Under the pieces are notes generated by a model, which was not told where the DNA came from, made no database searches, and saw only the letters and a program-made list of their open reading frames with translations. A DNA stretch of 64,000 bases from Alphaproteobacteria bacterium (GTDB lineage: Bacteria; Pseudomonadota; Alphaproteobacteria; UBA9219; RFNS01). The translations under genes and the position numbers were made by a program. Location: the NCBI GenBank assembly GCA_016124955.1, contig WGMR01000007.1, positions 218,103 through 282,102 on the forward strand, in the 5' to 3' direction. This document shows, one piece after another, positions 4,982 to 33,834 of this stretch (the stretch's first letter is position 1; each line of letters opens with the position of its first letter).

Positions 4982-5051
4982 GAGACGGGATGACGGGCGC
5001 GCCGAAAGGCGCTAGGTTGCGGCATGCAAGCATGGCATACGGGGTGAAGCA

Positions 5052-6236
5052 ATGAGCGGCGGAGGCGGCGGAGGCAGGGACGACAGTTCAACGGCATTCT
5101 TCTTCCTGCTGATTTTTCTGTTCGTGGTCGGGGCGCTGGCCTGGTATTTCCTCGGCGTTTATTTCATGGAAGCCATGCGCTGGCTGCGTGTCGGCGAACT
5201 GAGCATCATCAATGGCCTGACCGGCAACCATGGCGACTGGCTCGAATTCATCAAGAATGCGACCGCCGCCAAGGAACAGACGGTGCCGCCAACCCGCTTC
5301 ACCAGCGATGTTTCGGCGCAGGTCAACGGTATCGTGATGTACTATATCAAGTGGCCGGCGGTGCTGGTCATTGGCGGAATCGGCGTCTATGCCGCCTTTT
5401 TCTCCAATCGCGTCGGCTTTACCCACAACTTTAATCTTGAAACGCTGATCAAATACCAGGCCAAGGTGTGGCCGGTGATCAACCCGATCGTCGATTTCGA
5501 TCCGATCAATTCCAGCGCCCGCAATTACAATACGCCCGTGCCCAGCACGCTGCCGCTGTTTGCCGAAGCGCTGGCGCCGGAAGAATGGATCGCCTTTCAC
5601 CGCATCAAGGTCGTGAACGGCATCCCCGAACGCGAAGCCACCCGGCGCGCCTTTACCCAGCAACTCGGCCCGCGCTGGAACGGCTTCGGCAACGTGCCGA
5701 TCCACATCAAGGCGTTGATTGCGGCTTTCGCGGTCAAGGGCGCGCAGCGCCGCGAGGAGGCCGAGGAATTGCTGGGCGAGATCGCGATGTGCTGGTCGCA
5801 CAAGGCCGGGCTGGTGGTGACAGATAAATTACGCGAGAAAATCGAGAAAATTTTACGCGATCCGGAGCTGGGCGGGACGATCGAGCCCGTCGCGGCGCGT
5901 TATGCGTGGCGCACGACCGCGATGATCGGCATGCTGAAATGGGCGCGCGCCATGGGCGGCGTGCTCGCGCCCGCACAATTTCTGTGGTTGCGCGGCGCCG
6001 ACCGCGATCTTTGGTACCCGCTCAACAATTTCGGCCGCCGGGCGTTCCATAGCGAAGGCGCCGGCGCCATGGCGCATTTCATGGCCGAGGAGATTGCGCA
6101 AAAGCCCTTGCCCATACCGCGCATCGATACCGCGATCGTGACGCTGAACCAGTATCTTGCCAATACGCAGGCCAAGATTCCGCCGCTTGCGGAAAACGGA
6201 AAAGCTGGCAAAGTAGGACGTTCGAAGGCAAAGTAA
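5052..6236 (+). CDS. icmP: IcmP/DotM coupling-complex membrane protein (TrbA-like)
   Basis: DotM is an inner-membrane partner of the DotL coupling ATPase and helps recruit effectors through its cytoplasmic domain. This 394-aa protein (Legionella about 376 aa) begins with a Gly-rich stretch, has a membrane segment at residues 15-35, a second hydrophobic segment at about 97-115, and a large cytoplasmic region rich in helices. The ribosome site GGGGTGAAG is well placed before the ATG. It sits upstream of icmO with one small gene between them; in Legionella icmP and icmO are adjacent. Confidence 0.88.
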   Translation: MSGGGGGGRDDSSTAFFFLLIFLFVVGALAWYFLGVYFMEAMRWLRVGELSIINGLTGNHGDWLEFIKNATAAKEQTVPPTRFTSDVSAQVNGIVMYYIKWPAVLVIGGIGVYAAFFSNRVGFTHNFNLETLIKYQAKVWPVINPIVDFDPINSSARNYNTPVPSTLPLFAEALAPEEWIAFHRIKVVNGIPEREATRRAFTQQLGPRWNGFGNVPIHIKALIAAFAVKGAQRREEAEELLGEIAMCWSHKAGLVVTDKLREKIEKILRDPELGGTIEPVAARYAWRTTAMIGMLKWARAMGGVLAPAQFLWLRGADRDLWYPLNNFGRRAFHSEGAGAMAHFMAEEIAQKPLPIPRIDTAIVTLNQYLANTQAKIPPLAENGKAGKVGRSKAK

Positions 6237-6257
6237 AAGAAAGGTGAAGGGGGAAAC

Positions 6258-6731
6258 ATGATGGTTGCAACCAAGGCCACGATCAACGAACGGGCGCTTG
6301 TTGCGCTGTTCCGCGATAGCAACCCGCCGACCGTTTGGCGCATGGATCTCGATAAAAATCACAGCTTTGCCGTCGCCATTCAGGGCAAGGAAGGCGAATG
6401 GGAACTCGGGATCATGTCGTCGCGCGGTGAATTTACCGTGGTGGCGCGCTTCGCCACGCGGGAAGAGGTTGATACCGCCTTCGCATGCGTGCAGCGCGCG
6501 CTTATGTCCTCGCCCTCCAGCTTGCTGAACAAAGTGATCCGCACCGCCGCCATCACCGCGACGATCACGGTCATTTTGCTGATCGGCGCTGTTGCGCTTA
6601 ACGGTGTTTCAAGCGGCGATGCTGGCGGCAAAATCGGCGTAGCGCAAATCCAGCCGGGACAAGTGGCGTTACCGGCGCCGACACCTTCGGGCATTCCCTT
6701 GTCGGCCGACGAAGTGCTGCAGGCGCCGTAA
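6258..6731 (+). CDS. Unknown single-span membrane protein between icmP and icmO
   Basis: A 157-aa protein with a good ribosome site (AGGGGGAA) 21 bp after icmP. Residues 1-90 form a mixed soluble region with several Trp and acidic residues, then one membrane segment lies at about 95-117, and the C-terminal 40 residues are Pro/Ala-rich and presumably periplasmic. I do not recognise the family. Its place inside the icmP-icmO block suggests a component or adaptor of the coupling complex. In IncI plasmids a thioredoxin-like gene (trbB) sits between the dotM and dotL homologues; this protein has no CxxC and is not that gene. Confidence 0.7.
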   Translation: MMVATKATINERALVALFRDSNPPTVWRMDLDKNHSFAVAIQGKEGEWELGIMSSRGEFTVVARFATREEVDTAFACVQRALMSSPSSLLNKVIRTAAITATITVILLIGAVALNGVSSGDAGGKIGVAQIQPGQVALPAPTPSGIPLSADEVLQAP

Positions 6732-6898
6732 GTGCCTGAAATGCATGAAGCCGGCGTTTGCGCGCCGGAGGGCGTTGGTGGCAGAGGGACAGGAAAGACA
6801 AGATTTTTGCGGCGTTTTAAGGTATATTAACCGTCCAATCGTAAGGCATGGATGGGGTTGTTTGCAGCCCCGTTTTGGCAAGACAGCGGAAGAGCAGC

Positions 6899-9430: not shown

Positions 9431-9474
9431 CCGGCCGCCTTCCGGCCCGTTGCTTTCTCTGATATCTGTTCGGC

Positions 9475-10524
9475 ATGCTGATTCTCCATATCATGGCCAG
9501 CAAGGGCAACGGCGGGGCCGAAACCTATTTCGCCGATCTTGTCCTGCACTTGCACCGCGACGGGGTGGAACAGGCCGTTGTGTGCAGCGAACGACACCAA
9601 TGTTTTCCCGTGTTGCGGGCCGCGGGGGTAAAAATTTATCCCGGTCCGCTGCGCTGGCCGCTGGCTTTTTTGCAGCGCGCCGCTATTCGCCGGCTCGTGC
9701 TGCAGCTACGCCCGGCCATTGTGCATAGCTGGATGCGCCGCGGCGCTGCGTTGGCGCCGCGCGTGCCGGGCATGGCGCTGATCGGCTGGTTTGGCGGTTA
9801 TTACGATGTAAAATATTTCAGAGCCTGCACGCATTTCATCGGCGTTACCGCCGATATCGCCGCGCATATAAAGCGGGGTCTTGGAAAGCTCGGTATTCCG
9901 GAAAACCGGGCATCGCTGCAAACGACCTTCGCAAACATCGTTGATGGCGGCGCTTCCGCCGAAGCCATGCCGATTATTCCCGCCGGCGCCAAAGTGTTGC
10001 TGGCGCTTTCGCGGCTGCATCCCAAGAAAGGGCTCGATACGCTGTTGCAGGCCTTGCGCGATCTGCCCGATTGCCACGCGTGGCTGGCGGGGGACGGGCC
10101 GCTTGAAGCCGAGCTGAAGGCGCAAGCGCAGAAGCTCGGCGTTGCCGGGCGTGCGCATTTTCTCGGTTGGCGCAACGATCGCGGCGCGCTCATTCGCGCT
10201 GCCGATATCGTCGTGATGCCTTCGCGCTACGAACCGTTCGGCACCGTGGTGCTTGAAGGGTGGGCGGCGGGCAAACCGGTGATCGCGGCCCGCGCGACAG
10301 GGCCCGCGGCGACAATCAGCGATGGTGAGGATGGCTTGCTGGTCCCGGTCGATGATGCGACGGCGCTGGCAGGCGCGGTGCGCCGCGTGCTGGACGAGCC
10401 GGGCCTTGCGGAAAAGCTTGTCGCCAGCGCGGCGCGCAAACACGGGGAAGTTTATTCCCCCGCCGCCAGCACGGCGCGCATGATCGCGCTTTACCGCGCC
10501 ATAAGCCATGATATGAATGTGTAG
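9475..10524 (+). CDS. Family 4 glycosyltransferase
   Basis: A retaining GT-B glycosyltransferase (349 aa). The N-terminal Rossmann half opens with LHIMASKGNGGAET, the acceptor-side glycine-rich loop of GT4 enzymes. The C-terminal donor half has LSRLHPKKGLDTLL and the sugar-nucleotide motif MPSRYEPFGTVVLEGWAAG, containing the E-x7-E pair. The sugar and acceptor cannot be read from sequence. It lies inside the secretion locus, 44 bp after icmO, and is followed by an O-antigen-ligase-like gene, so the two may act on one glycan, either lipopolysaccharide or a surface protein such as the pilins. Confidence 0.88.
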   Translation: MLILHIMASKGNGGAETYFADLVLHLHRDGVEQAVVCSERHQCFPVLRAAGVKIYPGPLRWPLAFLQRAAIRRLVLQLRPAIVHSWMRRGAALAPRVPGMALIGWFGGYYDVKYFRACTHFIGVTADIAAHIKRGLGKLGIPENRASLQTTFANIVDGGASAEAMPIIPAGAKVLLALSRLHPKKGLDTLLQALRDLPDCHAWLAGDGPLEAELKAQAQKLGVAGRAHFLGWRNDRGALIRAADIVVMPSRYEPFGTVVLEGWAAGKPVIAARATGPAATISDGEDGLLVPVDDATALAGAVRRVLDEPGLAEKLVASAARKHGEVYSPAASTARMIALYRAISHDMNV

Positions 10525-20032: not shown

Positions 20033-21064
20033 ATGATCCACCACCGAGCCCATCTATCTGCTTTCCCGACCTTGCCTCTTCCGGCTGTTGCCCTGGCCTT
20101 CTTCGCTGCGTTGACGCTATCCGCGCAACCCGCGCAGGCAGCCTTCAAGCAGGTCGGGTTCAAATGGGTCGCGCCGGTTGAACAATCACAGCCGCCCGTC
20201 ATCATCGGCAATGACGCACCGAGCGTTTATGTTCCGCCCGGCGATTACGGCTATGAAAACGAATCCCTTCCCCCGCTCGTGATCGAAGGCAATGATCGCA
20301 GCCAGATGCCTTCCGTCAGTTCGCTGCCCGCGCAAGGCAGCAGCGGCGTGCTCGAAGGCTTTGCCGATAATGTTCCGCTGCAGGTCGCGTTGCGCCAGAT
20401 CGTGCCGGCGGGCTATGCCGTCGCTCCCGAAGCGAATGTCGATATGGGCGTGCTTGTGAACTGGCGCGGCGGCCGCCCGTGGCAGGATGTTTTGCAGGGG
20501 ATGCTGAACGGCGTCGGGCTTGAAAGCAATGTTAGCGGCCAGACCGTGAAGATCGCGCTTTCACAAAACCGGATGGCCCCCGTCGGGCTTGAGCCGTTGC
20601 CGCAGCAAGAGGATGCGCTGGCGCCGCTGCCGGCCACCACGGTCGGCGAAGCCACGGTGATGGAGCCGATGACGCCGATGCAATCGATGCCGATGACCGA
20701 GCCGGCAATGCCCGCCGCGCCAGCGCAGACGGGCATGATGCGGGGCGGCGTGGGGCAAGTTGTGGTTCCCCAGCTTCCCTCCGACATCGCTGCAACCTGG
20801 ACCGCCGAGCGCGGCAAAAGCCTGCATGACGTGATCGAGGAATGGTGCCGCCGCGACGGGGTCGAGCTTGTGTGGTCGGCGGAATATGATTATCCGCTGC
20901 AAGCCTCGCTTTCTTTCACCGGCACGTTCGAAGATGCGCTGCGTGGCGCGCTGGGTGCTTTTGCCCGTGTCAAACCGCAGCCTTTCGGCAGGCTGCACAG
21001 CAATTCCGATGCGGGTCAGCGCGTTCTCGTCGTAGAGGCGCGGGGCAACAATTATGGCGAATAA
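20033..21064 (+). CDS. PilL-like thin-pilus protein with TcpQ/N0-type domains
   Basis: A 343-aa exported protein; the ATG at 20033 gives a signal peptide (residues 1-37, ending SAQPAQA), while an in-frame TTG at 19967 would extend it needlessly. Two similar domains can be seen: residues about 105-190 (VLEGFADNVPLQVALRQIVP...) and about 250-340 (WTAERGKSLHDVIEEWCRR...). Both have the N0/STN pattern of TcpQ and PilL C-termini, separated by a Met/Pro/Ala-rich linker. It sits directly upstream of the secretin, as PilL does in R64, and probably helps secretin assembly. The same fold occurs in DotD. Confidence 0.78.
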   Translation: MIHHRAHLSAFPTLPLPAVALAFFAALTLSAQPAQAAFKQVGFKWVAPVEQSQPPVIIGNDAPSVYVPPGDYGYENESLPPLVIEGNDRSQMPSVSSLPAQGSSGVLEGFADNVPLQVALRQIVPAGYAVAPEANVDMGVLVNWRGGRPWQDVLQGMLNGVGLESNVSGQTVKIALSQNRMAPVGLEPLPQQEDALAPLPATTVGEATVMEPMTPMQSMPMTEPAMPAAPAQTGMMRGGVGQVVVPQLPSDIAATWTAERGKSLHDVIEEWCRRDGVELVWSAEYDYPLQASLSFTGTFEDALRGALGAFARVKPQPFGRLHSNSDAGQRVLVVEARGNNYGE

Positions 21065-21074
21065 GAGGGATATG

Positions 21075-22631
21075 ATGACGGCACGAAAGTTCATCACGCT
21101 TTGCGTCGCGGCTGTGCTGATTGCAAGCTGCAGCACGCAGGAAAAGCGTGATCTGATCGAAAGCCGTACCGAACAGGCGCAACAAGGCCTCGATCGCGCC
21201 CGGCTGCCCGCGCCGCCGTTAAAGCATGAATCGCTGGTGGTGACCGATGAAGTCTGGGGCGGCAACCGCTCCATCCGTATGCGCCGCGGCCAGCCTTTGC
21301 CGAAGAAATTCGAGCAGCCGCGCGCGGTTACGCTGATCGCGGCCGAGCCGATGACGCTGGGCGAGATTTTGAACATTCTTTCGGCGCAGACCGGTCTTCC
21401 GATGCGTTCGGGCGGCGAATTGGGCAGCGATAGCGAAGGCGGCGGCGGTACGGCCGGCACTTCGTCCTCGACGCCGATGCAGGTAACCTACGAAGGAACG
21501 CTTTCCGGCCTGCTCGAACAGGTCGCCAACTTCTATGGCATGAACTGGCATTTCGATGGCGTTGCCGTGACGTTCATGCGCTATGAAACGCGTATGTTCG
21601 TGATCGAAGCATTGCCGGGCCGCACCAAGACATCGGACAGCATCAACGCCGATCAGGGCGGTCAGAACACGGGCTCGAATACCACCGGCTCTACGCAGAC
21701 CAACGCGCTCGAACAGGAAAACCAGACCGAAAGCGAGTTCGATTTCTGGAAGGAAATCACCGCCGGCGTGAATTCGCTGCTCGGCGGCGTCGGCACGGCC
21801 GTTGTTTCGCAATCGACCGGTACGATCACCGTCACGACCTCAAGCGAGGTCATGAAGACGGTGGCCGATTTCCTGGAACAGCAGAACGGGCTGCTTTCGA
21901 AGCAGATCTCGATCAATGTCGAGGTTTATACGGTCGATCTTGATAACAGCGACAGCTTTACGGTCAGCCTCGAGACCGCGTTGAAGCGTATCGCGCCCTT
22001 CACCTTCGATATCAGCGGCGCCGAACCCTTCTCGCTCTCGAGCGCGGGCAGCTTCGCCGTCAGCATCATCGATAACCGCAACTATGGCCGTGTCGATACG
22101 ATCGCAAACGCGCTTTCGTCGGTCGGCAACACGGTGCGCGTGGCGCAGTTCCCGATGACCACGCTCAACAACCGGCCGGTTTCGCGCCGCATCGGCCGTG
22201 ACCGCACCTATCTTGCGCAGGTGCAGACCAACACGTCGCAGACTTTCCAGGATACCACGCTCACGCCGGGCACGATCCGCGAAGGTTTCTCGCTGCAGCT
22301 GACGCCGCGTATCCTCGCGGACGGCAGAATGCTGCTGCAATATTCGTTGAACCTGACCGACATCGTCACGATCCGGGATTTCACCAGCGGCGGCAATACC
22401 GTGCAGCTGCCTGAAACCACCAACCGCATATTCGTGCAGCAATCGTTGCTCAAGAGCGGCTCGACGCTCATTCTGGCCGGCTTCAACCAGGATCAGAATG
22501 GACAAAGCTCGCGCGGCATCGGCGATGCGTTCAATTACCTTCTCGGCGGCGGCGTGCAGAATACAGAGATACGGCAAATGCTGTTCATCGCCATCACGCC
22601 GCAGGAAATTGACATTCCGCGGGCGGAGTAA
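21075..22631 (+). CDS. pilN: PilN secretin lipoprotein of the thin type IV pilus
   Basis: Outer-membrane secretin through which the thin pilus is extruded. The ATG at 21075 has AGAGGG at good spacing (ATGs at 21054 and 21072 are alternatives) and gives 518 aa with a lipoprotein signal LIASC. The N-terminal half contains an STN/N0 domain (MTLGEILNILSAQTGLPM); the C-terminal half is the secretin beta-barrel domain, with the N-terminal beta-domain motif VTTSSEVMKTVADFLEQ and the closing segment STLILAGFNQD. The Gly/Ser/Thr/Asn-rich stretch near residues 198-220 is a linker. Order PilL-N-O-P-Q-R matches plasmid R64. Confidence 0.92.
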   Translation: MTARKFITLCVAAVLIASCSTQEKRDLIESRTEQAQQGLDRARLPAPPLKHESLVVTDEVWGGNRSIRMRRGQPLPKKFEQPRAVTLIAAEPMTLGEILNILSAQTGLPMRSGGELGSDSEGGGGTAGTSSSTPMQVTYEGTLSGLLEQVANFYGMNWHFDGVAVTFMRYETRMFVIEALPGRTKTSDSINADQGGQNTGSNTTGSTQTNALEQENQTESEFDFWKEITAGVNSLLGGVGTAVVSQSTGTITVTTSSEVMKTVADFLEQQNGLLSKQISINVEVYTVDLDNSDSFTVSLETALKRIAPFTFDISGAEPFSLSSAGSFAVSIIDNRNYGRVDTIANALSSVGNTVRVAQFPMTTLNNRPVSRRIGRDRTYLAQVQTNTSQTFQDTTLTPGTIREGFSLQLTPRILADGRMLLQYSLNLTDIVTIRDFTSGGNTVQLPETTNRIFVQQSLLKSGSTLILAGFNQDQNGQSSRGIGDAFNYLLGGGVQNTEIRQMLFIAITPQEIDIPRAE

Positions 22632-22636
22632 CCCGC

Positions 22637-23896
22637 ATGGGCAACGGCGTAGCAACGATAGGCAGGCGCAAATACGCCACCGGCCTTTACTGGCAGATAT
22701 CGCCTTCCGGCCGTATCGTGGTAGCCGCCAAGGAAGCGGCGCGCCAGCCCGGGCAATATTCTGACTTTTTCTCCATCCGCCCCGGCAACAAGACCGGGCG
22801 CGTCGGGCAATTCGGCCTCGGCACATCTGAATCGGGCCATCGCGCAGGCATGCCGACGCTGGCCGCCACGTTGGCCAACCGTCAGCCGGGTTCGTGGGCC
22901 GGGGCGTTCAAGATTCGCGAAGGGGTTTATGTCGTTATCGTCCGCGACGATCTGATCGCGCCTGACGGCGATCAGCTTTACGCCGACGAAGCCGAAGCGC
23001 GGAACCGGCTCTACCAGGAAATCAATCTCGGCGGCTTGCAACGTGTCTATGCGCCTGAAGCATGGGCCATTCCCGGCTCGGACGGCATGTCGCTCGCGCT
23101 TTTGCTGCAGGACCGGGCGGAATTTCCGCTGCGCCCCGTCGTGTTGCCGCGCAGCCTTATCGTCGGCGGCGTTATCGGGGCCGTTCTGCTTGCCGTGCTG
23201 CTTGCGGGCGGGCTTTACTGGCAGCACATGCAGGCCGAGCAGGAACGCGAACGCATGCTTTTGCAGGAAGCGCAAAAGCGTGCGCAGGCGCAAGCCAACC
23301 AGCAATTGCCGTCGCAGCTACAGCCGGTGCAGATCAACTATCCGCCGCCCGTCCGGTACTGGGAAAAGGAACCGGGGCCGCTTGAGCTGGTTGAAGCGTG
23401 CCGTGTTGCCATGTCGCAGGTTTCGATGGCGCAGGTCGGATGGGATATGTCGGAAGTGCGATGCAACCGCGGCGGGCTTACCGTAACGTGGGCGCGCCTT
23501 CCCGGCTTCGCGGCCGATATCAAGGGCGCTATCGTCGATGTGACCGGCCGCGCCGCCGTTACGAATATAGAGCTGACGGGGATACAGGACCGCGGCGACC
23601 AGAATCTTGCCGCGCCCACCTTCGTGACCCGCAAATTCTTAACGGAAAGCTGGGATGGTACGCTTAACCGCGATGTGGATGATCCGCCGCCGCCAAGGCC
23701 CCCGGAAATCCCCGCTGAACAGTGGAATCCGCCGCCACCGCCTTGGACAAAGCGGCTTTTCAGCATCGCTGTGGACTCTTTGCCTGGTGAATTATCAAGC
23801 TATTTTGGTAATCTGCCCGGAGTCATTATAAGATCATTAACCTTTAACGGTGGAAATTGGACAGTCGAGGGAGTGATCTATGAAAATCGCGAGTAA
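22637..23896 (+). CDS. pilO: PilO thin-pilus assembly protein
   Basis: A 419-aa bitopic inner-membrane protein: cytoplasmic N-terminal domain (1-172), membrane segment at about 174-194 (LIVGGVIGAVLLAVLLAGGL), a short charged helix (QAEQERERMLLQEAQKRAQA), then a periplasmic domain. This topology and the length match R64 PilO, the pilin accessory protein that forms the inner-membrane platform. It follows the secretin by 5 bp (GGAG ribosome site) and overlaps pilP by 17 bp. Partner proteins are PilP, PilQ and PilR. Confidence 0.85.
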   Translation: MGNGVATIGRRKYATGLYWQISPSGRIVVAAKEAARQPGQYSDFFSIRPGNKTGRVGQFGLGTSESGHRAGMPTLAATLANRQPGSWAGAFKIREGVYVVIVRDDLIAPDGDQLYADEAEARNRLYQEINLGGLQRVYAPEAWAIPGSDGMSLALLLQDRAEFPLRPVVLPRSLIVGGVIGAVLLAVLLAGGLYWQHMQAEQERERMLLQEAQKRAQAQANQQLPSQLQPVQINYPPPVRYWEKEPGPLELVEACRVAMSQVSMAQVGWDMSEVRCNRGGLTVTWARLPGFAADIKGAIVDVTGRAAVTNIELTGIQDRGDQNLAAPTFVTRKFLTESWDGTLNRDVDDPPPPRPPEIPAEQWNPPPPPWTKRLFSIAVDSLPGELSSYFGNLPGVIIRSLTFNGGNWTVEGVIYENRE

Positions 23897-24695
23897 ATAC
23901 ACCAGATTCGCTGCCGCATCTGTCGTCGTTCCGGCTATGGCCGGCTTGGCCTTCCTTGTGCTGGCAGCGACAACGCCAATCGCGGCGCAAGATACGGCAG
24001 AGGCAATCGATGGCGGCCCGGTGCTGCCAGATTTCACCTTGCCGCCCCCTGAAATCGATGAACCCGCGCTGCCATCGCCGGAAACCGTGCAAGCGCCGGT
24101 GGTTGCACCTGTCGCTGCGCCAGATAAGCCGGCATCGCCCAAGAAAAAGGCCGCGAGCGGCGGAGCACTGCCCAACCTTTCGACCGAGCCGGTCCATGAC
24201 GTGCTTGAAAAACTTTCCAGCGATCCGGAAAGCGACGCCACGATCGAAGATATGAACCAGGCTCGCGCGGCGCTGGCACGGCTTGAGCTGATGGTGGATA
24301 TCGAACAGAAGCTGTCTGACCTTGACGAAGTGCGCCGCAAGCGCGGCGAAGGCGGCATGGGCGCCATGATTCCCTCGAGCGCGCTCGGCATGCCCGGAAA
24401 TGGCGGCGATATGGGCGGTATCGGCATGGGCATGCCCATGCAACAGCAACAGCCGGTTTTCACAAGCTATGAAGTTTCGCGCATCGTCGGCACCGAAGGG
24501 ACTTACAGCGCGGTTGTGAATGTCGGCAACGGCCGGATGATCAGCGTGCGACCGGGCGACCAGTTGCCGGACGGCAGTACGGTGCGCGCCATTACTTCGG
24601 GCGGCGTGAATATCACCAGCGCCAAGGGCAAGGAAAAGACCATTCGCGTCAATTCCGTTGGTTTGCCCGCGACGGTCATGCAGGGCCATCGCTAG
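23880..24695 (+). CDS. pilP: PilP thin-pilus biogenesis protein
   Basis: A 271-aa exported protein with an N-terminal hydrophobic signal (residues 10-38). A Pro-rich region and a helix at about 98-150 follow, then a Gly/Met/Gln-rich linker, then a C-terminal domain (about 195-270) with the pattern VGTEGTYSAVVNVGNGRM...VRPGDQLPDGSTVRAITSGG. This is the PilP/GspC-HR-like beta fold that contacts the secretin periplasmic domains. It is longer than R64 PilP (about 150 aa) because of the central part. It overlaps the end of pilO. Confidence 0.85.
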   Translation: MKIASKYTRFAAASVVVPAMAGLAFLVLAATTPIAAQDTAEAIDGGPVLPDFTLPPPEIDEPALPSPETVQAPVVAPVAAPDKPASPKKKAASGGALPNLSTEPVHDVLEKLSSDPESDATIEDMNQARAALARLELMVDIEQKLSDLDEVRRKRGEGGMGAMIPSSALGMPGNGGDMGGIGMGMPMQQQQPVFTSYEVSRIVGTEGTYSAVVNVGNGRMISVRPGDQLPDGSTVRAITSGGVNITSAKGKEKTIRVNSVGLPATVMQGHR

Positions 24696-24818
24696 GCGCG
24701 GTTGGAAAGGGATTTTCCGCCTTGCTCTGCGAAGGGCATGTGCGGGTAAAGGTTTGTGTACGCAAGGGCGGCCCAGGAACGATCTTCCGGTCAGGAGGGC
24801 ATAGCGGAAAGCACGGCG

Positions 24819-26603
24819 ATGGATAAATCACCCTCTGATAGCACAGCGTCAACGCAACAGTCGGCCGCTGCATCGCTCAAGGTTGAGGATGACCGCAGCA
24901 TTGCTATGTCGGGCGCCGCCCTGACCTTCGAAGGCGTGTTGCTTACGGCTGAAAATGGCGCGCTCAAGATCCCGCAGGAATCGCGCAACCTTTGCGCCCT
25001 GTTTGATAGCGGCATGTGGCTGGTCAGCGCTACGCACCGCAATTCCCCGCTCGTGACCTCGGTCGCGCAATCGGCGCGCCGCCAGGGTTATAAGGTTGAC
25101 GAACCGCGCTACGTCACGCCCAACATCATCCAGCAGGCCTATAGCTATTCCAACCGGCAGGTATCGTTAACCCGGCTCGATGAAAACGCGGTGCGCCGCC
25201 GCGTGGTCGAAACGCTGCAAAAGGCGGTCGAACTCGGCACCAACGACGTGCATATTGAAGCTTCGGGCGGTCGTACCAAGGTTGAATTCCGCATCGACGG
25301 TTCGCTGCGCCAATGGGAAACATGGACCCAGCGCGAAGGCGAACATGTGTTGTCGGCGGTTTATTCGCATTCGATCGGCCAATCGGGCGCCACCGCCAAC
25401 TGGCTCGAACCGCAGGCGGCGATGCTGACGCCGGGCGGCGGCGCCGACACGATCCAGCTCCCCGAAGGCGTGATCAGCGTACGCTGCCAATGGGTGCCGT
25501 TGGCCGACGGCGGCCGCTATCTCGATATGCGCCTGCAATACGACAGCGCGCATCTGTTCGGCGAAAACTTTGTCATGGCCGATGTGGACAGTCTCGGCTT
25601 TTCGCAAGAACAGCTGCGGGTGATCCAGCAGCTGCGCGCGGTGCCCGGCGGCATGCGGGTGTTTTCCGGCCCGGTCAACCAGGGCAAAACCACCACGTTG
25701 CGCGTCATGCTTAACCGGCGCATGGCGGAAACAAATTTCCAGCTGAACTGCCTGATGATCGAAGATCCGCCCGAAGGCGGCGTCATCGGCGCGCGCCAGA
25801 TCGGCGTTTCGGCCTCGGTCAAAGATGACCAGCGCGAACGCACCTTCGCTGAAATCATGCGTTGTGCGCTGCGCCTCGATCCCGATATCGTGATGCTCGG
25901 TGAAACGCGCGATTTACAGACCGCGAAATTCTCGTTCCGCCTCGCGCTCACCGGTCGCCAGGTCTATACCACGCTGCACGTCTATTCGGCACTTGCGGTG
26001 CCGCAACGTCTGCGCGATCTCGGGCTCGAACCCTATCTGGTGTACGATCACCAGCTGGTGCGCGGCATGATCTGTCAACGCCTGCTGCGCGGCATGTGCG
26101 AACATTGCCGTATTCCGCTGCTTAAATCGCCGCAGGAACTGGGGCTGGATTATTATGACGTGGTCAAGCGCGTGCGCGCCGGCTTCAGCATGATGGATGC
26201 GTACCGCAACCCTGCCGGGCAGGACAGGCCGATCACGGAACGCTTGAAGGAGCCCGATATAAGCAACGTTTTCGTAGCCAACCCCGAAGGCTGCAAACAT
26301 TGTTATAAGGGCCGCAGCGGCCGCACCGTGTGCGCCGAGGTGATTGAAACCGACGCGAAGCTGATGGAGCTTTTGTCCGAAAACAAAATGGCGGAAGCCG
26401 AGCATTACTGGCTTTCCCCACACGGCCAGAACGGTATTACCATGTTGTGGCACGCGCTGGAGAAAATCCGGCGCGGCGAGGTTTCGCCTGTGGATGCCGA
26501 GTTTGAAGTGGGCCCGGTTGCGCGCGAACGCGATATACTGGATGTTGAACAGGTGCTGGGCGTTCTGCCCGGAAGCGCCCCCGGAACGGATGTGCCCGCA
26601 TGA
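24819..26603 (+). CDS. pilQ: PilQ thin-pilus assembly ATPase (GspE/PilB family)
   Basis: Cytoplasmic hexameric ATPase powering thin-pilus extension. Start at the ATG at 24819 (CGGAAAG upstream) gives 594 aa; a GTG at 24756 would add 21 residues. Walker A is GPVNQGKT at 284-291, an unusual spelling of GPTGSGKT that keeps G-x4-GKT. The Asp box region contains LMIEDPPE, Walker B is LDPDIVMLGETRD, and the His box VYTTLHVYSAL. A four-cysteine zinc-type site is formed by MCEHC and GCKHC near residues 427-430 and 496-499, typical of GspE/PilB. Its stop overlaps the pilR start. Confidence 0.92.
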   Translation: MDKSPSDSTASTQQSAAASLKVEDDRSIAMSGAALTFEGVLLTAENGALKIPQESRNLCALFDSGMWLVSATHRNSPLVTSVAQSARRQGYKVDEPRYVTPNIIQQAYSYSNRQVSLTRLDENAVRRRVVETLQKAVELGTNDVHIEASGGRTKVEFRIDGSLRQWETWTQREGEHVLSAVYSHSIGQSGATANWLEPQAAMLTPGGGADTIQLPEGVISVRCQWVPLADGGRYLDMRLQYDSAHLFGENFVMADVDSLGFSQEQLRVIQQLRAVPGGMRVFSGPVNQGKTTTLRVMLNRRMAETNFQLNCLMIEDPPEGGVIGARQIGVSASVKDDQRERTFAEIMRCALRLDPDIVMLGETRDLQTAKFSFRLALTGRQVYTTLHVYSALAVPQRLRDLGLEPYLVYDHQLVRGMICQRLLRGMCEHCRIPLLKSPQELGLDYYDVVKRVRAGFSMMDAYRNPAGQDRPITERLKEPDISNVFVANPEGCKHCYKGRSGRTVCAEVIETDAKLMELLSENKMAEAEHYWLSPHGQNGITMLWHALEKIRRGEVSPVDAEFEVGPVARERDILDVEQVLGVLPGSAPGTDVPA

Positions 26604-27697
26604 ATCTGAATTTTGACGAATATAAGCTGCCGATGGCGCAATGGCGTTTCCGCAACAACCGCAACCAGCGTTTCCGTATCTATCGCAAGTTGCAGGGCAT
26701 GCTGGCGATGAACGAGGCGCTTTCGCGGGCACTTGAGCGGCTATGGTACAACGTTTCCGAAATGGGCAAATATCCCAACCGCCCGGCGGCGATTGCGCTG
26801 CGCGAATGGCTGCGGCGCGATCGCGGCGGCGAAAGCTTTTCCGAAGCGCTGGCGGGCTGGGTGCCTTCGGCCGAACTTTATATGATCCGCGCGGGCGAAG
26901 AATCCGGCACCGTCGCCAAATCGCTCGGCGCGATCCAGAGCATGGGCGAAAGCGCGCGCGAAATGCGGCAGGCGGTGATGTATGCCATGTCGTACCCGGT
27001 TTTCATGCTTTTGCTCGTGGCCGGCGTTTTGTGGATGTTCGGCGTCAACCTGATCCAGAATATGCGCAAGAACGCGCCGCCCGAAGTGGTCGAAAGCATG
27101 GGCGGGCTTGCCTCCATGTCCGATTTCATCATGGCCTGGGGCATTCCCATCATGTTGGCGCTGGTCGTGCTGGGCATACTTGTATTCGTCACGCTGCCGT
27201 TCTGGCGCGGCATGATCCGATCAAAGTTCGATATGGTGCCGCCATGGTCATGGTACCGCATATGGCAAGGAAGCGGCTTCATGCTCGGTCTTTCTTCCCT
27301 GCTCGGCGCGCAGGTGCCGTTGCGCCGGGCGCTTGAAATTCTTGAGGAACAGGGCAATCCGTGGATCCGCGAACGTATCATGGCGGCGCGCGAAGAAGTG
27401 CTGCGCGGGCGCAACCTTGGCGAAGCGCTGCGCACCGGCAACATGAACTTCCCGGATCCCCAGGTCGCGATCGACCTTGAAATTTTGTCGGAACGCGCCG
27501 ACGTCGGCATCGTGATCGAACAGATCACCGAAGAATGGATCCGCGAACAGGTGGACAACCTGAAGACCCAGTCGATGGTGATCCGCAATATCGGGCTGGT
27601 GATCGTCGGCACCGTAATTGCCTTCGCCATGCTTTCGATCCTGCACATCACAACCGTGATCACAAGCCAGTCCACCCGGACCGGCGGCGGGTTTTAG
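26600..27697 (+). CDS. pilR: PilR thin-pilus inner-membrane platform protein (GspF family)
   Basis: A 365-aa GspF/TadC-type polytopic protein with two repeated helical domains and three membrane segments (about 130-152, 175-200 and 333-355). The repeat signature appears as ALAGWVPSAELYMIRAGEESG in the first half and ALEILEEQ...ILSERAD in the second. It couples the PilQ ATPase to pilin polymerisation. It overlaps pilQ by 4 bp (ATGA) and ends 2 bp before the first prepilin gene, so the whole run is one operon. Confidence 0.92.
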   Translation: MNLNFDEYKLPMAQWRFRNNRNQRFRIYRKLQGMLAMNEALSRALERLWYNVSEMGKYPNRPAAIALREWLRRDRGGESFSEALAGWVPSAELYMIRAGEESGTVAKSLGAIQSMGESAREMRQAVMYAMSYPVFMLLLVAGVLWMFGVNLIQNMRKNAPPEVVESMGGLASMSDFIMAWGIPIMLALVVLGILVFVTLPFWRGMIRSKFDMVPPWSWYRIWQGSGFMLGLSSLLGAQVPLRRALEILEEQGNPWIRERIMAAREEVLRGRNLGEALRTGNMNFPDPQVAIDLEILSERADVGIVIEQITEEWIREQVDNLKTQSMVIRNIGLVIVGTVIAFAMLSILHITTVITSQSTRTGGGF

Positions 27698-27699
27698 CC

Positions 27700-28320
27700 G
27701 TGAACCGGGCTCCGTGCCGCGCCTTCACGCTGACCGAAGCGGCGATCGTGCTGCTGATTGTCGGGCTTATCACCGGCGCGCTATGGGCGGCGGGCAGCGC
27801 GATCCAGAAAAGCGCGCAGGTCAATACCGCGTCCGACCAGATATACGAAATTGCCGCGAACATGCGGGCGCTTTACGCTTCGCGCCAGACCATCACCGGC
27901 GCCGACAACGCTTTTAACATCACGATGGATCAATCGCGCGTCTTTCCGATCGATATGCGGCGCAACCGCGCGGTCGAAGGCGGCCCCGTGGACCATGTTT
28001 GGAACAAAGGCATTACCGGCGGTTCTGTCCAGGTGGCGGGCTATGATCTTGCGGCGGGCACAACCTCTCCGTCCGCGCCGCCCGCGCGCAGCTTCAGGGT
28101 GCAGTTTCTTTCGCTGCCTTCCGATATATGCACGAAGCTTGTGCTGCATGAATTTGTTGCCGACCAGAACACGCGGCTGGAAGCCATCGTAGTGCGCGGC
28201 GGGGCCGCCACCAGCTTCCTTGCCAGCGCAGGCGCGCTGCCGCCTTCTCTGGTTGCCGCCAGCGCGGCCTGCAATTCCAGCACTTCGCCCAGCGTTGACT
28301 GGGTCTTCAGCCTGCATTGA
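27700..28320 (+). CDS. PilS-like prepilin 1 (class III signal with Ala at -1)
   Basis: A 206-aa type IV prepilin starting at a GTG 2 bp after pilR. The processing region reads NRAPCRA/FTLTEAAIVLLIVGL: Phe at +1 and Glu at +5 are kept, but the residue before the cut is Ala instead of the near-invariant Gly. The hydrophobic helix is followed by a PilS-type globular domain, with MRALYASRQTITG, VFPIDMRRN and a C-terminal cysteine (AACNSST). It is probably a minor pilin, or the main pilin if the peptidase accepts Ala. The next prepilin gene follows immediately. Confidence 0.85.
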   Translation: MNRAPCRAFTLTEAAIVLLIVGLITGALWAAGSAIQKSAQVNTASDQIYEIAANMRALYASRQTITGADNAFNITMDQSRVFPIDMRRNRAVEGGPVDHVWNKGITGGSVQVAGYDLAAGTTSPSAPPARSFRVQFLSLPSDICTKLVLHEFVADQNTRLEAIVVRGGAATSFLASAGALPPSLVAASAACNSSTSPSVDWVFSLH

Positions 28321-28328
28321 GGGTTAAA

Positions 28329-28949
28329 ATGCTTGTTTCCGCCATCCGCCGCAGCCGCCGCGGCTTCACCTTGCTCGAACTCGCGATCGTTCTGATCGTT
28401 GCCGGGCTTCTGGTCGCCGGGGTCTGGTTTGCCGCGATCAAGACGCGCGAAAGCATGAATGTCTATACCGCGGAAAAACAGCTGATGGTTCTTGTGCAGA
28501 ATTTGCGCGAAGCGTGGCTGATCCGCAGCACGATCCAGGGCGATTACGCGCAGCTCACGCAATCGCTTGCGCAGCTTGATGTGTTTCCGGCTGAAATGAA
28601 GCGCAACCCCAACATCATTCCGGCCAACTGCGCTACCGGCAACCCCTGTTATTTCGATAGCCCGTGGGATCGAACCTCGACCGGCACGTCGCCTGTGGCG
28701 GTGGCCTCGGTCAACGGCGCGACCGTTGGCGCGGCCGGGCGCTTTTTCCGCGTGCAGTACAGCAATACGCCGGTTTACGCCTGCATCCAGCTCACCACGC
28801 GCTTTTCCGAAGTGGTGGCCGATATCAAGATGACGGCGGCGGTCATCAACGGCACGACCTATGCGGTGCCGATGACGATTGCGCAGGTCACGGCTGCATG
28901 CAACGCTTCTATGAACACGGTCGCATTCCAGTTCGCGATCCGTAGCTGA
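28329..28949 (+). CDS. PilS-like prepilin 2
   Basis: A 206-aa prepilin. The ATG at 28329 has GAGGG at good spacing; a TTG at 28317 is in frame but unlikely. The leader MLVSAIRRSRRG is cut before FTLLELAIVLIVAGL, with Gly at -1, Phe at +1 and Glu at +5. The globular part keeps the PilS features: ENLREAWLIR-like helix (LVQNLREAWLIR), VFPAEMKRN, a disulfide-capable pair CATGNPC, and paired cysteines toward the C-terminus. It is the second of four tandem prepilin genes. Confidence 0.9.
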   Translation: MLVSAIRRSRRGFTLLELAIVLIVAGLLVAGVWFAAIKTRESMNVYTAEKQLMVLVQNLREAWLIRSTIQGDYAQLTQSLAQLDVFPAEMKRNPNIIPANCATGNPCYFDSPWDRTSTGTSPVAVASVNGATVGAAGRFFRVQYSNTPVYACIQLTTRFSEVVADIKMTAAVINGTTYAVPMTIAQVTAACNASMNTVAFQFAIRS

Positions 28950-28960
28950 CGAGGAAGGTC

Positions 28961-29563
28961 ATGAAAAAAGCGAGGCGCGGCAAAAAAGGCTTTACACTGG
29001 TCGAATTGGCGGTTGTGCTTGGCGTGGTCGGGCTCGTGCTTGGCGGCATATGGGTGTTTGCCGGGCGCAGCAACGAATCGGCGCGGACCGAACAATCGCT
29101 CGGTCAGCTTGTGATATTGCTGAACAACATACGGTCATATTACCTGTCGCAGCCGAACATGGCTTCGGGCGATGTCACCACAATTCTTGCCGCCGCCAGC
29201 GTGTTTCCGAGCGAAATGCTGCGCGCAGGCGCGCCTACAATCGTGGACCATCCGTGGGGCGCGCTGCCGCCCGGCGGCGGGCTGCTGGTAAGCGGCACGA
29301 CGGCAAGCGGCGGCGCCAGCACTGGCGGAACCTATTATTTCACGCTGACCTATCGCGGGCTTAAGGCTGAAAGTTGCATCGCCTTTGCGGCGCGCGCGGG
29401 CAGCGGACCGACCGCGAACGGCCTTACCGCCGTAAGCGTTAGCGGCACGCCAATTTCAATGCCGCCGCTTATCGGCGCGCTGGGCGGGCCATGCGCCGTT
29501 GACGGCGGCACGGGCACGGGCGCGAATGTGGCGCTAACCTACCGGCTTCGCCTGCAAAACTAG
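28961..29563 (+). CDS. PilS-like prepilin 3
   Basis: A 200-aa prepilin with a strong ribosome site (GAGGAAGG). Leader MKKARRGKKG precedes FTLVELAVVLGVVGL. The globular domain shows YLSQPNMASGDVTTI, VFPSEMLR, HPWGALP and a cysteine pair (ESCIAFAAR and GPCAVDGG). It ends 183 bp before the fourth prepilin gene, so the pil operon may end or weaken here. Confidence 0.9.
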   Translation: MKKARRGKKGFTLVELAVVLGVVGLVLGGIWVFAGRSNESARTEQSLGQLVILLNNIRSYYLSQPNMASGDVTTILAAASVFPSEMLRAGAPTIVDHPWGALPPGGGLLVSGTTASGGASTGGTYYFTLTYRGLKAESCIAFAARAGSGPTANGLTAVSVSGTPISMPPLIGALGGPCAVDGGTGTGANVALTYRLRLQN

Positions 29564-29746: not shown

Positions 29747-30376
29747 ATGATCACCATTTGCGCCGCCCGCCGCCGGCTCTCCGCCAACCGCACCGCCGGT
29801 CGCAGCGGTTTCAACCTGATCGAAGCCGCCATCGTTCTTGGTATCGTCGGGCTCATCGTCGGCGGCATCTGGGTCGCGGCATCGGCGGTCTATGAAAATC
29901 TCCGCACCGGCCGCGCATCGCAGGAATTGCTGCAGATCGCGCAAGCGGTTCGCACGCTGCATGGTTCGCAAACCACAATTGCTTCCGGCAACATCAGCGC
30001 TGCCATGGTAGCCGCGCGCGCTATTCCGAACGATATGATCCTGACGGCAGGCGGCACCCAGCCGCAAAACCCGTGGCAGGGTAATGTCGATATCTATGGC
30101 ATCACCTCGATCAGCGCTTCGGACGGCCCCGGTTTCTGGGTCGTGTTCAACGGCTTGCCGCAGAACGGCTGCGTCGATCTCGCGATCCGCAATTCCGGTT
30201 CGGCGCGCGATATCGGCATGGTGCGCGTTTCGCTTTCAAGCTCGGCGCAGGGCTCCTCGCTCGGCGGCACTTCGGGCGTGGTTCCGCCCGTTACGGTCGT
30301 GCAGGCGGCATCGTCATGCAGCGACAACAGCGCCAACAACAACTCGGCCGCCTTCCTGTTCCGTATCCGCGGCTAA
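29747..30376 (+). CDS. pilS: PilS-like prepilin 4, candidate major pilin
   Basis: A 209-aa prepilin with a 21-residue leader ending GRSG and mature start FNLIEAAIVLGIVGL (Glu at +5). The globular domain has the PilS marks: AVRTLHGSQTTIASG, AIPNDMI, the segment NPWQGNVDIYG, and cysteines in NGCVDL and SSCSDN. It has its own leader region and ribosome site and is followed by a perfect 12-bp-stem terminator, unlike the three prepilins before it. This monocistronic layout makes it the best candidate for the major subunit of the thin pilus; that choice is inference. Confidence 0.88.
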   Translation: MITICAARRRLSANRTAGRSGFNLIEAAIVLGIVGLIVGGIWVAASAVYENLRTGRASQELLQIAQAVRTLHGSQTTIASGNISAAMVAARAIPNDMILTAGGTQPQNPWQGNVDIYGITSISASDGPGFWVVFNGLPQNGCVDLAIRNSGSARDIGMVRVSLSSSAQGSSLGGTSGVVPPVTVVQAASSCSDNSANNNSAAFLFRIRG

Positions 30377-30469: not shown

Positions 30470-31084
30470 ATGGCAGCGAAGAAAAAACGACCAGCATACC
30501 CGGATGAAGGCGAGGCCGCCGGCCCCGCCAACCAGCGGCAGTGGCTGCTGATTACGCTCGTGGTTCTGCTTCTGGTGGGCACCGCGCTATGGCTTTCGGT
30601 GCAGGCCGCGTATGAGAACACGAAATTCACCGCCGTGTCGGGGCAGGTCGTGCAATTGCTCGGGCGCCTGCAAAGCATACGGCTCGATCATGCCGACATG
30701 CTGCGGCGGCAGAACACCGACCTCGTGCTCGCGCTGAAAAACGCAGGCGTTTTGCCCGGCACCACCCAGGGCGCAGACGGCATCGAACATATTATCAACC
30801 CTTGGGGCAACCCGGTCACCGGCCGTTTGTTGCAGGGGCCCTATTACCGCTTCACCACCATAGTTCCCGCGCCGGCGTGCGAGCGCATGGCGGATTTTTT
30901 CGCCGCGCAGGAAGCGCTGGAGATTGTGCAGATGCAGATGATCAATGCCGATGGCGGGATGGAAGCGATGCGCGGGCGCAAGCCGGTTGTGTTGAACACA
31001 AGCGGGCTTAACCGCAGGGCAATACCGCCCGCATGCAGCATCGGGCGGCAGATTCTGATGGCTTTGTACTTCAAGGCCGGCTAG
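30470..31084 (+). CDS. Pilin-like protein without a prepilin cleavage site
   Basis: A 204-aa protein related in layout to the PilS proteins. A basic/acidic 24-residue N-terminus leads into one membrane segment (about 25-47), then a PilS-like globular region with LGRLQSIRLDHADMLRRQ, AGVLPGT and INPWGNPVTG. There is no Gly-Phe cut site and no Glu at the +5 position, so it should stay in the inner membrane as an uncleaved, non-polymerising paralogue. It has a weak ribosome site and begins just after the terminator. It could regulate assembly or cap the base of the pilus. Confidence 0.78.
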   Translation: MAAKKKRPAYPDEGEAAGPANQRQWLLITLVVLLLVGTALWLSVQAAYENTKFTAVSGQVVQLLGRLQSIRLDHADMLRRQNTDLVLALKNAGVLPGTTQGADGIEHIINPWGNPVTGRLLQGPYYRFTTIVPAPACERMADFFAAQEALEIVQMQMINADGGMEAMRGRKPVVLNTSGLNRRAIPPACSIGRQILMALYFKAG

Positions 31085-31224: not shown

Positions 31225-31842
31225 ATGTATCTTTTTGTCTTCGTTTTCCTTTTGCTCACCATTATCGGCGTGTTCACGCAGGTGTTCGCGGTGCAGACCG
31301 CGCGCTTCTCAGCCAACCAGGCTGTGGCGGGGCAGCAGATGCTGGCATGGCATTATGCGGCGACGCGGTTTGCGCGCGCGCACCCGACCTATGGCCTTAC
31401 ACAAACGGGTTGCCGTATAACCGGCGGCGCTACGCTGTATAGCGGCCTCACGCTCACGACCGCGTGTTCCACGACCCTTGCCGCTTCGGATTTGCCGACC
31501 GGCTATGTGGTTTCGTACCAGTGGGAATCGATCGTTTTTACAGACCCGGGCACCAGCCAGCGTATGGTTGTCACCTTCGTGCCGCCGGACGCCAATGATG
31601 CGCAAGCCCCGCGCGCTCCGGCCGGGCTGGCGATCAATCAGATCCTGACGCAGCTGCGTAAGGCGCAGCCCGGTTCGATCACATCCGGCAGCATTTCCGG
31701 GGCGTGTCCGGGCTCGATCATGGTTCCGGCCTCGCAGCCCGGCGGCAGCTTCGTGACGCAATACCCCGTACCCAAGAGTGCAGCCGCGCCCGTTACCTGC
31801 TATGTTCCGGTGGGATCGGTCGCGTCCTATACCGTCCTGTAA
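31225..31842 (+). CDS. PilM-like thin-pilus protein
   Basis: A 205-aa protein starting with an uncharged membrane segment (residues 2-22) and no basic leader. It continues into a helix with ARFSANQAVAGQQMLAWHYAATRFARAHP, the layout of R64 PilM, and has a C-terminal region with three cysteines after CRITGG. Longer than R64 PilM (about 145 aa). The gene lies 21 bp before the pilV-like gene, so the two are likely cotranscribed. The role of PilM in thin-pilus assembly is poorly defined. Identification rests on N-terminal pattern and position. Confidence 0.62.
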   Translation: MYLFVFVFLLLTIIGVFTQVFAVQTARFSANQAVAGQQMLAWHYAATRFARAHPTYGLTQTGCRITGGATLYSGLTLTTACSTTLAASDLPTGYVVSYQWESIVFTDPGTSQRMVVTFVPPDANDAQAPRAPAGLAINQILTQLRKAQPGSITSGSISGACPGSIMVPASQPGGSFVTQYPVPKSAAAPVTCYVPVGSVASYTVL

Positions 31843-31863: not shown

Positions 31864-33258
31864 ATGCTGAGAATTCCCAGACGCCGCGCCGGACAAAAGG
31901 GTTTCACGCTGGTCGAACTTGCCATCGTCGTCGCCATCGCGGGCTTGTTGTTCGCGGGGCTGTGGCGGTTGATGTCATCGGGCACGCAACAGCTCGCGGA
32001 ACAGGCGGCGGCCGACCAGATGCAGAAACTGGCCAATGCGGTGAAGGGTTATCTTTCTTCCTCGAACGGGCAGCAATGGCTCGCGACCGCAAGCTGGCAA
32101 AATAACCTTGCCACCGGCACTTTCAATCTTCCGCTTCCCGCCGCCGGCGCGCCCGCAGGCAGCACCAACTGTAAAACCACCGCGCCGATGAGCACGGCTT
32201 CGGCCCCCTCGGCCTCCTCGCTGTGGCGCGATTTCTGTGATTATTTGCCCTCCGGCTTTTCCGCAGCCAGCATCAACCCTTATGGACAGGCCTATGAAAT
32301 CAAGGTGCGGCGCGTTTCCGGCACGCTCGGTTCGGCGCCGACCGCCTATGAATTCATGATCCTCACCAACGATGCGGGCGGTACCAACGTTATTCCCGAT
32401 ACGCAGGGCGGCCGTATCGCCGCGCTTATGGGCGGCGATGGCGGGTTCGTTTATACCAATAACAATGTCTGCGGTTCGCCGCCGGTACAATGGGCCTGCG
32501 GTGCGTTCGGCGGCTTTGCCATCAACATCAATAGCTATAGTTCGGCGTCAAGCTTCACGGCTTCCTCAAGCGGCGGGCGCATCGCTTCGCGCACTTTCGT
32601 AAGTGCGGACAGCAGCACATCTTCGCCCTGGCTGGCGCGTTCTCTGTTGCCGGGCGACAATGCCACGACGCCCGTCTTTAACACCATGAGCACCAGTCTC
32701 GTGCTCGGCGGCCAGCAGGTTTACATGGGCGCGAACACCACGGCGACAACCGGCGGCGGCAACTTCAACGTCGCAGGCGGCGATATCACGGGGCAGGGGC
32801 GTATCGTGCTTGGCGCGACCGCGGGCAAGACCGGCGTTGCGAACTTCAACAATACCGGCGGTACGGGCGCTGCGGTTGTGATTACCGGCACGGGTTCGGG
32901 CGACGCCGCGACGGTAAACAGCGGCGATCTTACGGTCTCGGCCGCCGTCAACGCCAATGCGTTCGTCTATACCTCGGATCGCAACCTGAAGCACGATATC
33001 GTACGGCTCGATGGCACGCTGGACAAGTTGCTGCAGATCGAAGGCGTGAGCTTCCGCTGGAACAGCGACGACAGCGAAAGCATGGGCCTGATCGCGCAGG
33101 ATGTTGAGAAGGTTTATCCCGAGCTGGTCGTGATCAAGGCTGATGGCACCAAGGGGGTGGATTACGGCAAGCTTGTTGGGCCGATTATCGAATCGATCCG
33201 TGCGCTGCACGAAGAAAACGCGGCGCTGCGCCACGAGATCGAAAGGCTGAAACGCTAG
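31864..33258 (+). CDS. pilV: PilV-like tip adhesin with C-terminal peptidase S74 chaperone domain
   Basis: A 464-aa minor prepilin. Leader MLRIPRRRAGQKG precedes FTLVELAIVVAIAGL (Gly -1, Glu +5). Residues about 40-280 resemble the constant region of shufflon PilV proteins, including DYLPSGFSAASINPYGQAYE and GRIAALMGGDGG. Then a Gly/Thr/Asn-rich repetitive stretch (about 285-365) looks like a trimeric phage tail-fibre stalk. The last ~95 residues are a peptidase S74 (endosialidase intramolecular chaperone) domain: SDRNLKHDI with Ser371 and Lys376 in the Ser-x4-Lys spacing of the self-cleaving dyad, then MGLIAQDVEKVYPELV and a closing coiled coil EENAALRHEIERL. Ribosome site AAGGA. No recombinase or inverted segments follow. 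Confidence 0.88.
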   Translation: MLRIPRRRAGQKGFTLVELAIVVAIAGLLFAGLWRLMSSGTQQLAEQAAADQMQKLANAVKGYLSSSNGQQWLATASWQNNLATGTFNLPLPAAGAPAGSTNCKTTAPMSTASAPSASSLWRDFCDYLPSGFSAASINPYGQAYEIKVRRVSGTLGSAPTAYEFMILTNDAGGTNVIPDTQGGRIAALMGGDGGFVYTNNNVCGSPPVQWACGAFGGFAININSYSSASSFTASSSGGRIASRTFVSADSSTSSPWLARSLLPGDNATTPVFNTMSTSLVLGGQQVYMGANTTATTGGGNFNVAGGDITGQGRIVLGATAGKTGVANFNNTGGTGAAVVITGTGSGDAATVNSGDLTVSAAVNANAFVYTSDRNLKHDIVRLDGTLDKLLQIEGVSFRWNSDDSESMGLIAQDVEKVYPELVVIKADGTKGVDYGKLVGPIIESIRALHEENAALRHEIERLKR

Positions 33259-33285: not shown

Positions 33286-33684
33286 TCAGCGCGATACGAA
33301 CAGGAAGCAGGTCAGGCCGCAGCTTTTGTTTGCCTGTTCGCTATAGCAGCAAACCGGCCAGCGGTAGTTGCCGACACTTTCAACCTTCGATGCCTTGTTG
33401 GGAATGACGCACTTTTCGTGCGGCCCTGCGCGCTTGAAATCGCTCATGGAACCGGAAATATTGTAATTCCACTGCACGCATTCATTTGCTTCGGTGACCG
33501 CCATCGTGCTGCTGAGGCCGAGGCAGCCGGTGCTTGCCTTGGTGGCGCAGCTAACCTTGCCGAGCAGGGCGGATGAGCCGTTAAAAGGCGCGGCATCGCG
33601 AACGTTTGCGGACGGGACAGTGTCTTCAGCCATGGAAGGGGCGGCTAGGCACAGGGCCAGAAGCAGGGCAGCTAGAAAACGCAT
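33286..33684 (-). CDS. Small secreted cysteine-rich protein, unknown
   Basis: 132 aa from the ATG at 33684, preceded by the strong ribosome site GGGAGGT. A clear signal peptide (MRFLAALLLALCLAAPSMA) is followed by a mature protein with eight cysteines, several toward the C-terminus (PVCCYS, KSCGLTC). No known family is recognised; the even cysteine count suggests a compact disulfide-bonded fold. It is convergent with pilV and divergent from the rluD-like gene, with its own AT-rich promoter region at 33685-33780. A periplasmic or surface accessory is possible. Confidence 0.72.
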   Translation of the reverse strand: MRFLAALLLALCLAAPSMAEDTVPSANVRDAAPFNGSSALLGKVSCATKASTGCLGLSSTMAVTEANECVQWNYNISGSMSDFKRAGPHEKCVIPNKASKVESVGNYRWPVCCYSEQANKSCGLTCFLFVSR

Positions 33685-33834
33685 GGAACCTCCCAATAGC
33701 TTAAATAGACACGATACAGCAGGAACGTGCCAAAATTTTGACTTTTATACCAGCGAATACAATTAGTTTGTTCCGTTATGCTAAATAAACCCTTAAAACA
33801 GGCCTTAACCCTTGTTTTCCGGATGCCTGCCGCC

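Follow-up and report, generated by a model that had tools for sequence, protein, structure and literature searches.

A PilV-type minor pilin with a C-terminal S74 domain, conserved across an alphaproteobacterial order, as a candidate self-maturing tip of a type IVb pilus

The final gene of a complete type IVb pilus operon with the gene order of R64 encodes a 464 aa protein, here called PilV-S74, in which a class III prepilin leader and a type IVb pilin body are followed by a stalk of variable length and a Peptidase_S74 domain. It is present as one intact ORF in 28 of the 33 genomes of an alphaproteobacterial order, drawn from three families. PilV-S74 is probably the tip minor pilin of this chromosomal pilus, and its S74 domain would trimerise a stalk resembling that of a phage fibre and then cut itself off.

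The pilus operon and the pilin module

The intact ORF was recovered by an ORF scan of the window, the whole 64,000 nucleotide stretch that was analysed, which lies in a host genome of 1.93 Mb in 11 contigs. The first-pass annotation of this ORF, as a prepilin carrying an S74 domain, is confirmed. The genes of the operon and the parts of PilV-S74 are as follows.

21054–22631 (+): PilN secretin (TIGR02520, type IVB secretin, 1.8e-79)
22637–23896 (+): PilO-like gene, named from position and cross-genome similarity only
23880–24695 (+): PilP-like gene, also named only from position and cross-genome similarity
24756–26603 (+): PilQ-like assembly ATPase (Pfam T2SSE, 1.8e-54)
26600–27697 (+): PilR-like inner-membrane platform protein (Pfam T2SSF, 4.6e-26)
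27535–28320, 28317–28949, 28961–29563 and 29747–30376 (+): four type IVb pilins (Pfam PilS, Bundlin or N_methyl), the start of the first ORF being over-extended
30470–31084 (+): m204, membrane-anchored pilin-like protein without a class III motif (sub-threshold Bundlin match, E 0.15)
31225–31842 (+): m205, conserved gene directly upstream of pilV, with one TM helix at its N-terminus, a weakly pilin-like fold and no class III leader
31864–33258 (+): PilV-S74, modular type IVb minor pilin and putative tip adhesin (Pfam N_methyl and Peptidase_S74; found in 28 of the order's 33 genomes)
31864–31902 (+): class III leader, residues 1–13, with a predicted prepilin peptidase cut at Gly13/Phe14 and Glu18 as mature Glu5
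31903–32703 (+): alpha-1 helix and type IVb pilin body, residues 14–280 (tblastn to plasmid PilV, AF2 pLDDT, and fold matches to TcpA, PilS, TcpB and CofB)
32704–32973 (+): variable stalk, residues 281–370, expected to form an intertwined trimeric beta fibre (length and identity among homologues, PHROG 8215, monomer pLDDT)
32974–33255 (+): Peptidase_S74 domain or intramolecular chaperone, residues 371–464, with Ser371, Lys376 and a C-terminal helix, and a predicted cut at Thr370/Ser371 (Pfam, fold, and Ser and Lys invariant in 27/27)

PilV-S74 thus sits at the end of an operon of the pilN-O-P-Q-R-S type, as in shufflon PilV loci. The order pilO2-pilP-ATPase-T2SSF-pilin-...-pilV is shared with a plasmid locus in PLSDB, and that of a Bosea locus is closely similar. 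The host genome includes three prepilin peptidase genes. It has no match to the VirB4 family; hence the pilus is unlikely to serve mating, and a conjugative role was rejected.

The gene m205 precedes pilV in 19 of the 20 neighbourhoods examined. It matched no Pfam family and no PDB sequence, and its AF2 model (pLDDT 81) is most similar in fold to TcpB (Z 5.5) and Clostridioides difficile PilW (Z 5.3), both weak matches. An identification of m205 as PilM was rejected on these grounds, the fold matches being weak and pilin-like and PilM (3eoi) being absent from them. From its model, m205 is a possible tip partner of PilV-S74. On the other side of pilV and convergent with it, a small secreted Cys-containing protein is encoded at 33286–33696 (-), with only a sub-threshold match to DUF6948; a similar small protein is found at the same place in genome G002 (L042, 9825–10223, -).

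The leader of PilV-S74 reads MLRIPRRRAGQKG followed by FTLVE, and cleavage is expected after Gly13. N_methyl was matched at residues 9–33 (E 7.5e-7), TIGR02532 matches too, and G13, L16 and E18 are invariant in 27/27 homologues, in accord with the class III cleavage site proposed from the sequence. With N_methyl and S74 both matched by Pfam within one ORF, the protein is a modular type IV pilin.

The body had been described as of the shufflon PilV type, and this stands in part. A tblastn search aligns residues 6–286 with proteins that carry the name PilV in plasmid annotations (28 % identity, E 5e-11), but the similarity is weak, and Shufflon_N (PF04917) found no match in a Pfam profile search of the protein or its genome. 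Shufflon_N does match 4 of the 27 homologues (best 4.3e-12), and one homologue that was scored individually reached 26.8 bits, just under the cut-off of 27.5. The AlphaFold (AF2) model is confident in the body (pLDDT mostly 80–95) and in the S74 domain, and comparison of the body with known folds returned TcpA and Salmonella typhi PilS (Z 6.3 each), TcpB (5.4) and CofB (4.2–4.5), modest to moderate scores that lend moderate support to a type IVb pilin fold, though not proof of it. Assignment of the body as a PilV-type type IVb pilin is supported by its homology.

The S74 domain and the stalk

Residues 371–422 match Peptidase_S74 (PF13884) with 57.8 bits, well clear of the curated cut-off of 22 (E 1.4e-15), and the Ser371 and Lys376 of the first-pass annotation are where it had placed them, in the S-x4-K spacing of the motif SDRNLK. 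In an alignment of 27 homologues from 27 genomes, Peptidase_S74 and N_methyl both match every sequence (27/27), and Ser371, Asp372 and Lys376 are invariant (27/27). An architecture in which both domains and both catalytic residues are kept in 27 intact homologues from 27 genomes is far beyond chance. Conservation of the Ser/Lys pair is usual among S74 domains generally and, hence, does not of itself prove that PilV-S74 is cut. In endoNF, the catalytic pair is assisted by a helper residue, Arg897.

The S74 end of the model matches the MyRF ICA domain (7dc3, Z 9.6), the endoNF chaperone (3gw6, Z 8.2), the T5 fibre (4uw8, Z 6.7) and the GA-1 appendage (3gud, Z 6.5) over alignments of 81–108 residues, and the model therefore supports a chaperone fold of the endosialidase, T5 and MyRF type. 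Of the trailing coiled coil that had also been proposed, the monomer AF2 model predicts the helix, at residues 434–463. Ser587 and Lys592 of MyRF correspond to Ser911 and Lys916 of endoNF, each pair is indispensable, and in both proteins cleavage, for which the chaperones have to be trimeric, takes place immediately ahead of the Ser (PMC8326128).

Whether the pairing of a pilin with S74 was already known had been left to a search of domain architectures, and it is indeed catalogued, though Shufflon_N itself is not matched in PilV-S74: a pilin with IPR030392 (S74) is among the 15 most frequent modular-pilin architectures of Raynaud et al. 2021 (PNAS, PMC8179133). Those authors, without functional work, read S74 on pilins as a 'predicted peptidase' and, thus, as a possible pilus function (PMC8179133), and the InterPro name of the module is likewise peptidase. 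That S74 is a working peptidase shown on the pilus and acting on other proteins, as this implies, is nevertheless improbable in the extreme, as the S74 domains that have been characterised cut their own chain, and do so only as trimers (PMC8326128), and the fold match found here is to self-cutting chaperones. Open-access literature yielded no paper pairing 'peptidase S74' with 'type IV pil', and 'peptidase S74' with 'pilin' was paired there apparently in proteomics surveys only. What is new here is the PilV setting, a dyad that stays invariant in a protein conserved across an order, the variable stalk, and the re-reading of the 'peptidase' as a maturation chaperone.

The stalk (residues 281–370) is rich in Gly, Thr, Ala and Asn, a composition that agrees with the Gly/Thr/Asn-rich stalk claimed at first. 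Among phage-protein profiles, PHROG 8215 (baseplate wedge initiator) covers residues 279–462 at 2.3e-37, and since this match reaches beyond the S74 core the stalk too resembles a phage fibre. In the AlphaFold monomer, residues 288–369 fall below pLDDT 50 and, thus, may be disordered. Among the 27 homologues, conservation is lowest and length most variable in the stalk, which ranges from 71 to 161 residues with a mean pairwise identity (gaps counted) of 15 %, compared with 56 % for the alpha-1 region, 32 % for the body and 46 % for the S74 core. The core is almost constant in length, and residues 423–464 vary in length as little as it does. Fixed ends flanking a variable stalk are the expected pattern for a variable binding fibre.

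The constant length of residues 423–464 would also suit a tip that S74 trimerises yet never leaves, with the uncut chaperone and coiled coil capping the pilus and joining in binding. This we consider rather unlikely, as neither catalytic residue varies in any of 27 divergent sequences, and an S74 domain that is conserved while the stalk varies is the reverse of the pattern for an exposed binding part.

No inverted repeats or inversion arms were found around pilV, and the nearest tyrosine recombinase (integrase-family) gene on the contig is approximately 96 kb away; hence, a shufflon is absent, as had been supposed from the lack of visible inverted segments or a recombinase after the gene. A fixed tip in place of a shufflon is supported.

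Distribution and origin of PilV-S74

Of 32 genomes of the order, 27 encode the PilQ ATPase by a match at E <= 1e-60. The one near-complete assembly without PilV-S74, G008, also lacks a PilQ match, which counts in favour of PilV-S74 as a pilin of this pilus. The ORF in G002 (L042, 8099–9822, +) is broken in the stalk, where a stop follows directly on the pilin body and the S74 part continues in another frame, and PilQ was not matched there at 1e-60; the break may reflect either a decaying pilus or a misassembly. The remaining genomes of the order without an intact PilV-S74 are a fragmentary one (G016) and two incomplete assemblies (G022 and G031).

Surveys of 385 genomes sampled from the class and 398 from the phylum, each scored for its few top candidates, yielded no ORF outside the order that combines the body and S74. 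A plasmid-borne fusion was rejected because no plasmid locus covers both parts, and a prophage origin of the whole gene because the pilin body found no match in 50,697 phage records. A prepilin motif search of the distant S74 loci that were fetched revealed no other fusion of a pilin with S74.

The nearest S74 domain among the phages sampled, from Synechococcus phage S-CAM7, is 45 % identical. A phylogenetic analysis of 91 S74 domains rested on 99 columns and left many forks unresolved. Its quick unconstrained search dispersed the PilV-S74 sequences, and a constrained tree grouping all 28 was 52 log units better (p-AU 0.973). Hence, a single origin is not rejected, and the sequences fit one acquisition. 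The relationship to phage tail-fibre S74 domains and the low pLDDT of the stalk in the monomer model are what would be seen were the stalk a flexible linker, the pilin monomeric and S74 an inherited phage fragment of little function. We judge this very unlikely, given that the architecture is intact in 28 of the 33 genomes and three families with an invariant dyad, and that a single-clade origin fits best, which implies that S74 has been kept on PilV since the ancestor.

Other S74 proteins were observed in these genomes. A second family, of giant S74 fibres, adjoins an UppP-like gene (L040, 9949–15819, -, in G000:C4; L089, 3511–13647, +; L094, 1445–6577, +), with sizes of 1956 aa at L040 and 3379 aa in G008. 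Their N-terminus is a hydrophobic segment, GFM(I/L)xPxLYxLA, and in the host genome the fibre includes a pseudopilin-like stretch, DPW...ISAGPNG, but it lacks a Glu5 and matches no Pfam pilin family; possibly it represents another pilin-like protein with S74. The giant fibre gene at L040 is followed downstream (2204–9952, -, G000:C4) by three S74-ended proteins of 1068, 393 and 565 aa with apparent Sec signal peptides and then a Gly-rich protein of 557 aa without S74, the set forming tandem secreted fibres. S74 domains also lie inside open frames of 25,189 codons (G132:C34, near 140643–140966) and 9,801 codons (G002:C1, near 636118–636648), possibly encoding giant fibre proteins.

A proposed route to a trimeric tip

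We infer the trimer, its cleavage and its adhesion, and its position at the tip from homology only. The prepilin would enter the inner membrane and, judging from the motif, be cut after Gly13. Three periplasmic S74 domains would then join at their terminal helices and thread the stalks together as a single beta fibre, a step modelled on S74 proteins with solved structures. After folding, Ser371 and Lys376 would break the chain at Thr370-Ser371 and a chaperone of 94 residues (10.6 kDa) would leave, the product being a kinetically stable trimeric tip of three chains (residues 14–370) of approximately 36 kDa each, a mass computed from residue 13 on. The mature tip would start the pilus, as TcpB and CofB trimers do, and its exposed, fast-diverging stalk would touch surfaces or other cells. 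On this scheme S74 trimerises the tip and then departs and, hence, would be a maturation chaperone rather than an enzyme delivered by the pilus.

According to the authors of the TP114 study, the position of the adhesive pilin is not established for most type IV pili (PMC9045228), and PilV-S74 could on that account be a minor pilin like any other, placed along the shaft and neither priming nor capping the pilus. A bulky, trimeric C-terminal part speaks for the tip, which is where the trimers of CofB and TcpB sit (PMC9565799), and a place along the shaft is thus highly improbable. In CofB (CFA/III) and TcpB (TCP), as in PilV-S74, a type IVb body precedes a long C-terminal part, but those trimers, which tip the pilus, form via beta domains without a cleavable chaperone, and the trimer proposed here is predicted by analogy.

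The PilV proteins of plasmids R64 and TP114 share with PilV-S74 a homologous body, the last place in the same type IVb operon and a variable C-terminal part. Theirs is switched by DNA inversion with Rci, whereas PilV-S74 is chromosomal, in a genome with no VirB4 homologue, and ends in a fixed S74 fibre with no invertible segments. As plasmid PilV works without S74, a pilin of this type can do without trimerisation by S74. The modular pilins of Raynaud et al. 2021 likewise have S74 grafted onto a class III pilin module at the N-terminus, though that study is a domain count only, with no pilus system, alignment or mechanism; PilV-S74 is a type IVb PilV in its operon, found across an order, with an invariant dyad and a variable stalk. 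EndoNF, the T5 L-shaped fibre, the GA-1 neck appendage and the MyRF ICA all carry a C-terminal Ser-x4-Lys chaperone after a trimeric beta stalk; PilV-S74 shares the chaperone, by its sequence and model (fold Z 6.5–9.6), after a stalk expected to form such a trimer. Those chaperones are carried by a phage fibre or, in MyRF, by a eukaryotic transcription factor, whereas the carrier here is a pilin and cleavage is predicted only.

We are evenly divided on the broader proposal that the whole order builds a self-maturing trimeric type IVb tip fibre of phage design, with a cleavable chaperone that folds the tip and is then discarded, and a stalk free to diversify while the pilin base before it and the chaperone after it stay fixed. 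If true, tail-fibre maturation would have a counterpart on the cell surface, and tip specificity could be altered by a means other than the shufflon. If S74 does mature the tip, pilus assembly would involve a discarded folding chaperone, the catalogued proteins combining a pilin with 'peptidase S74' would be self-assembling trimeric tips rather than pilus-borne peptidases, and phage receptor-binding modules and pilus adhesins would share a way to make exchangeable binding ends.
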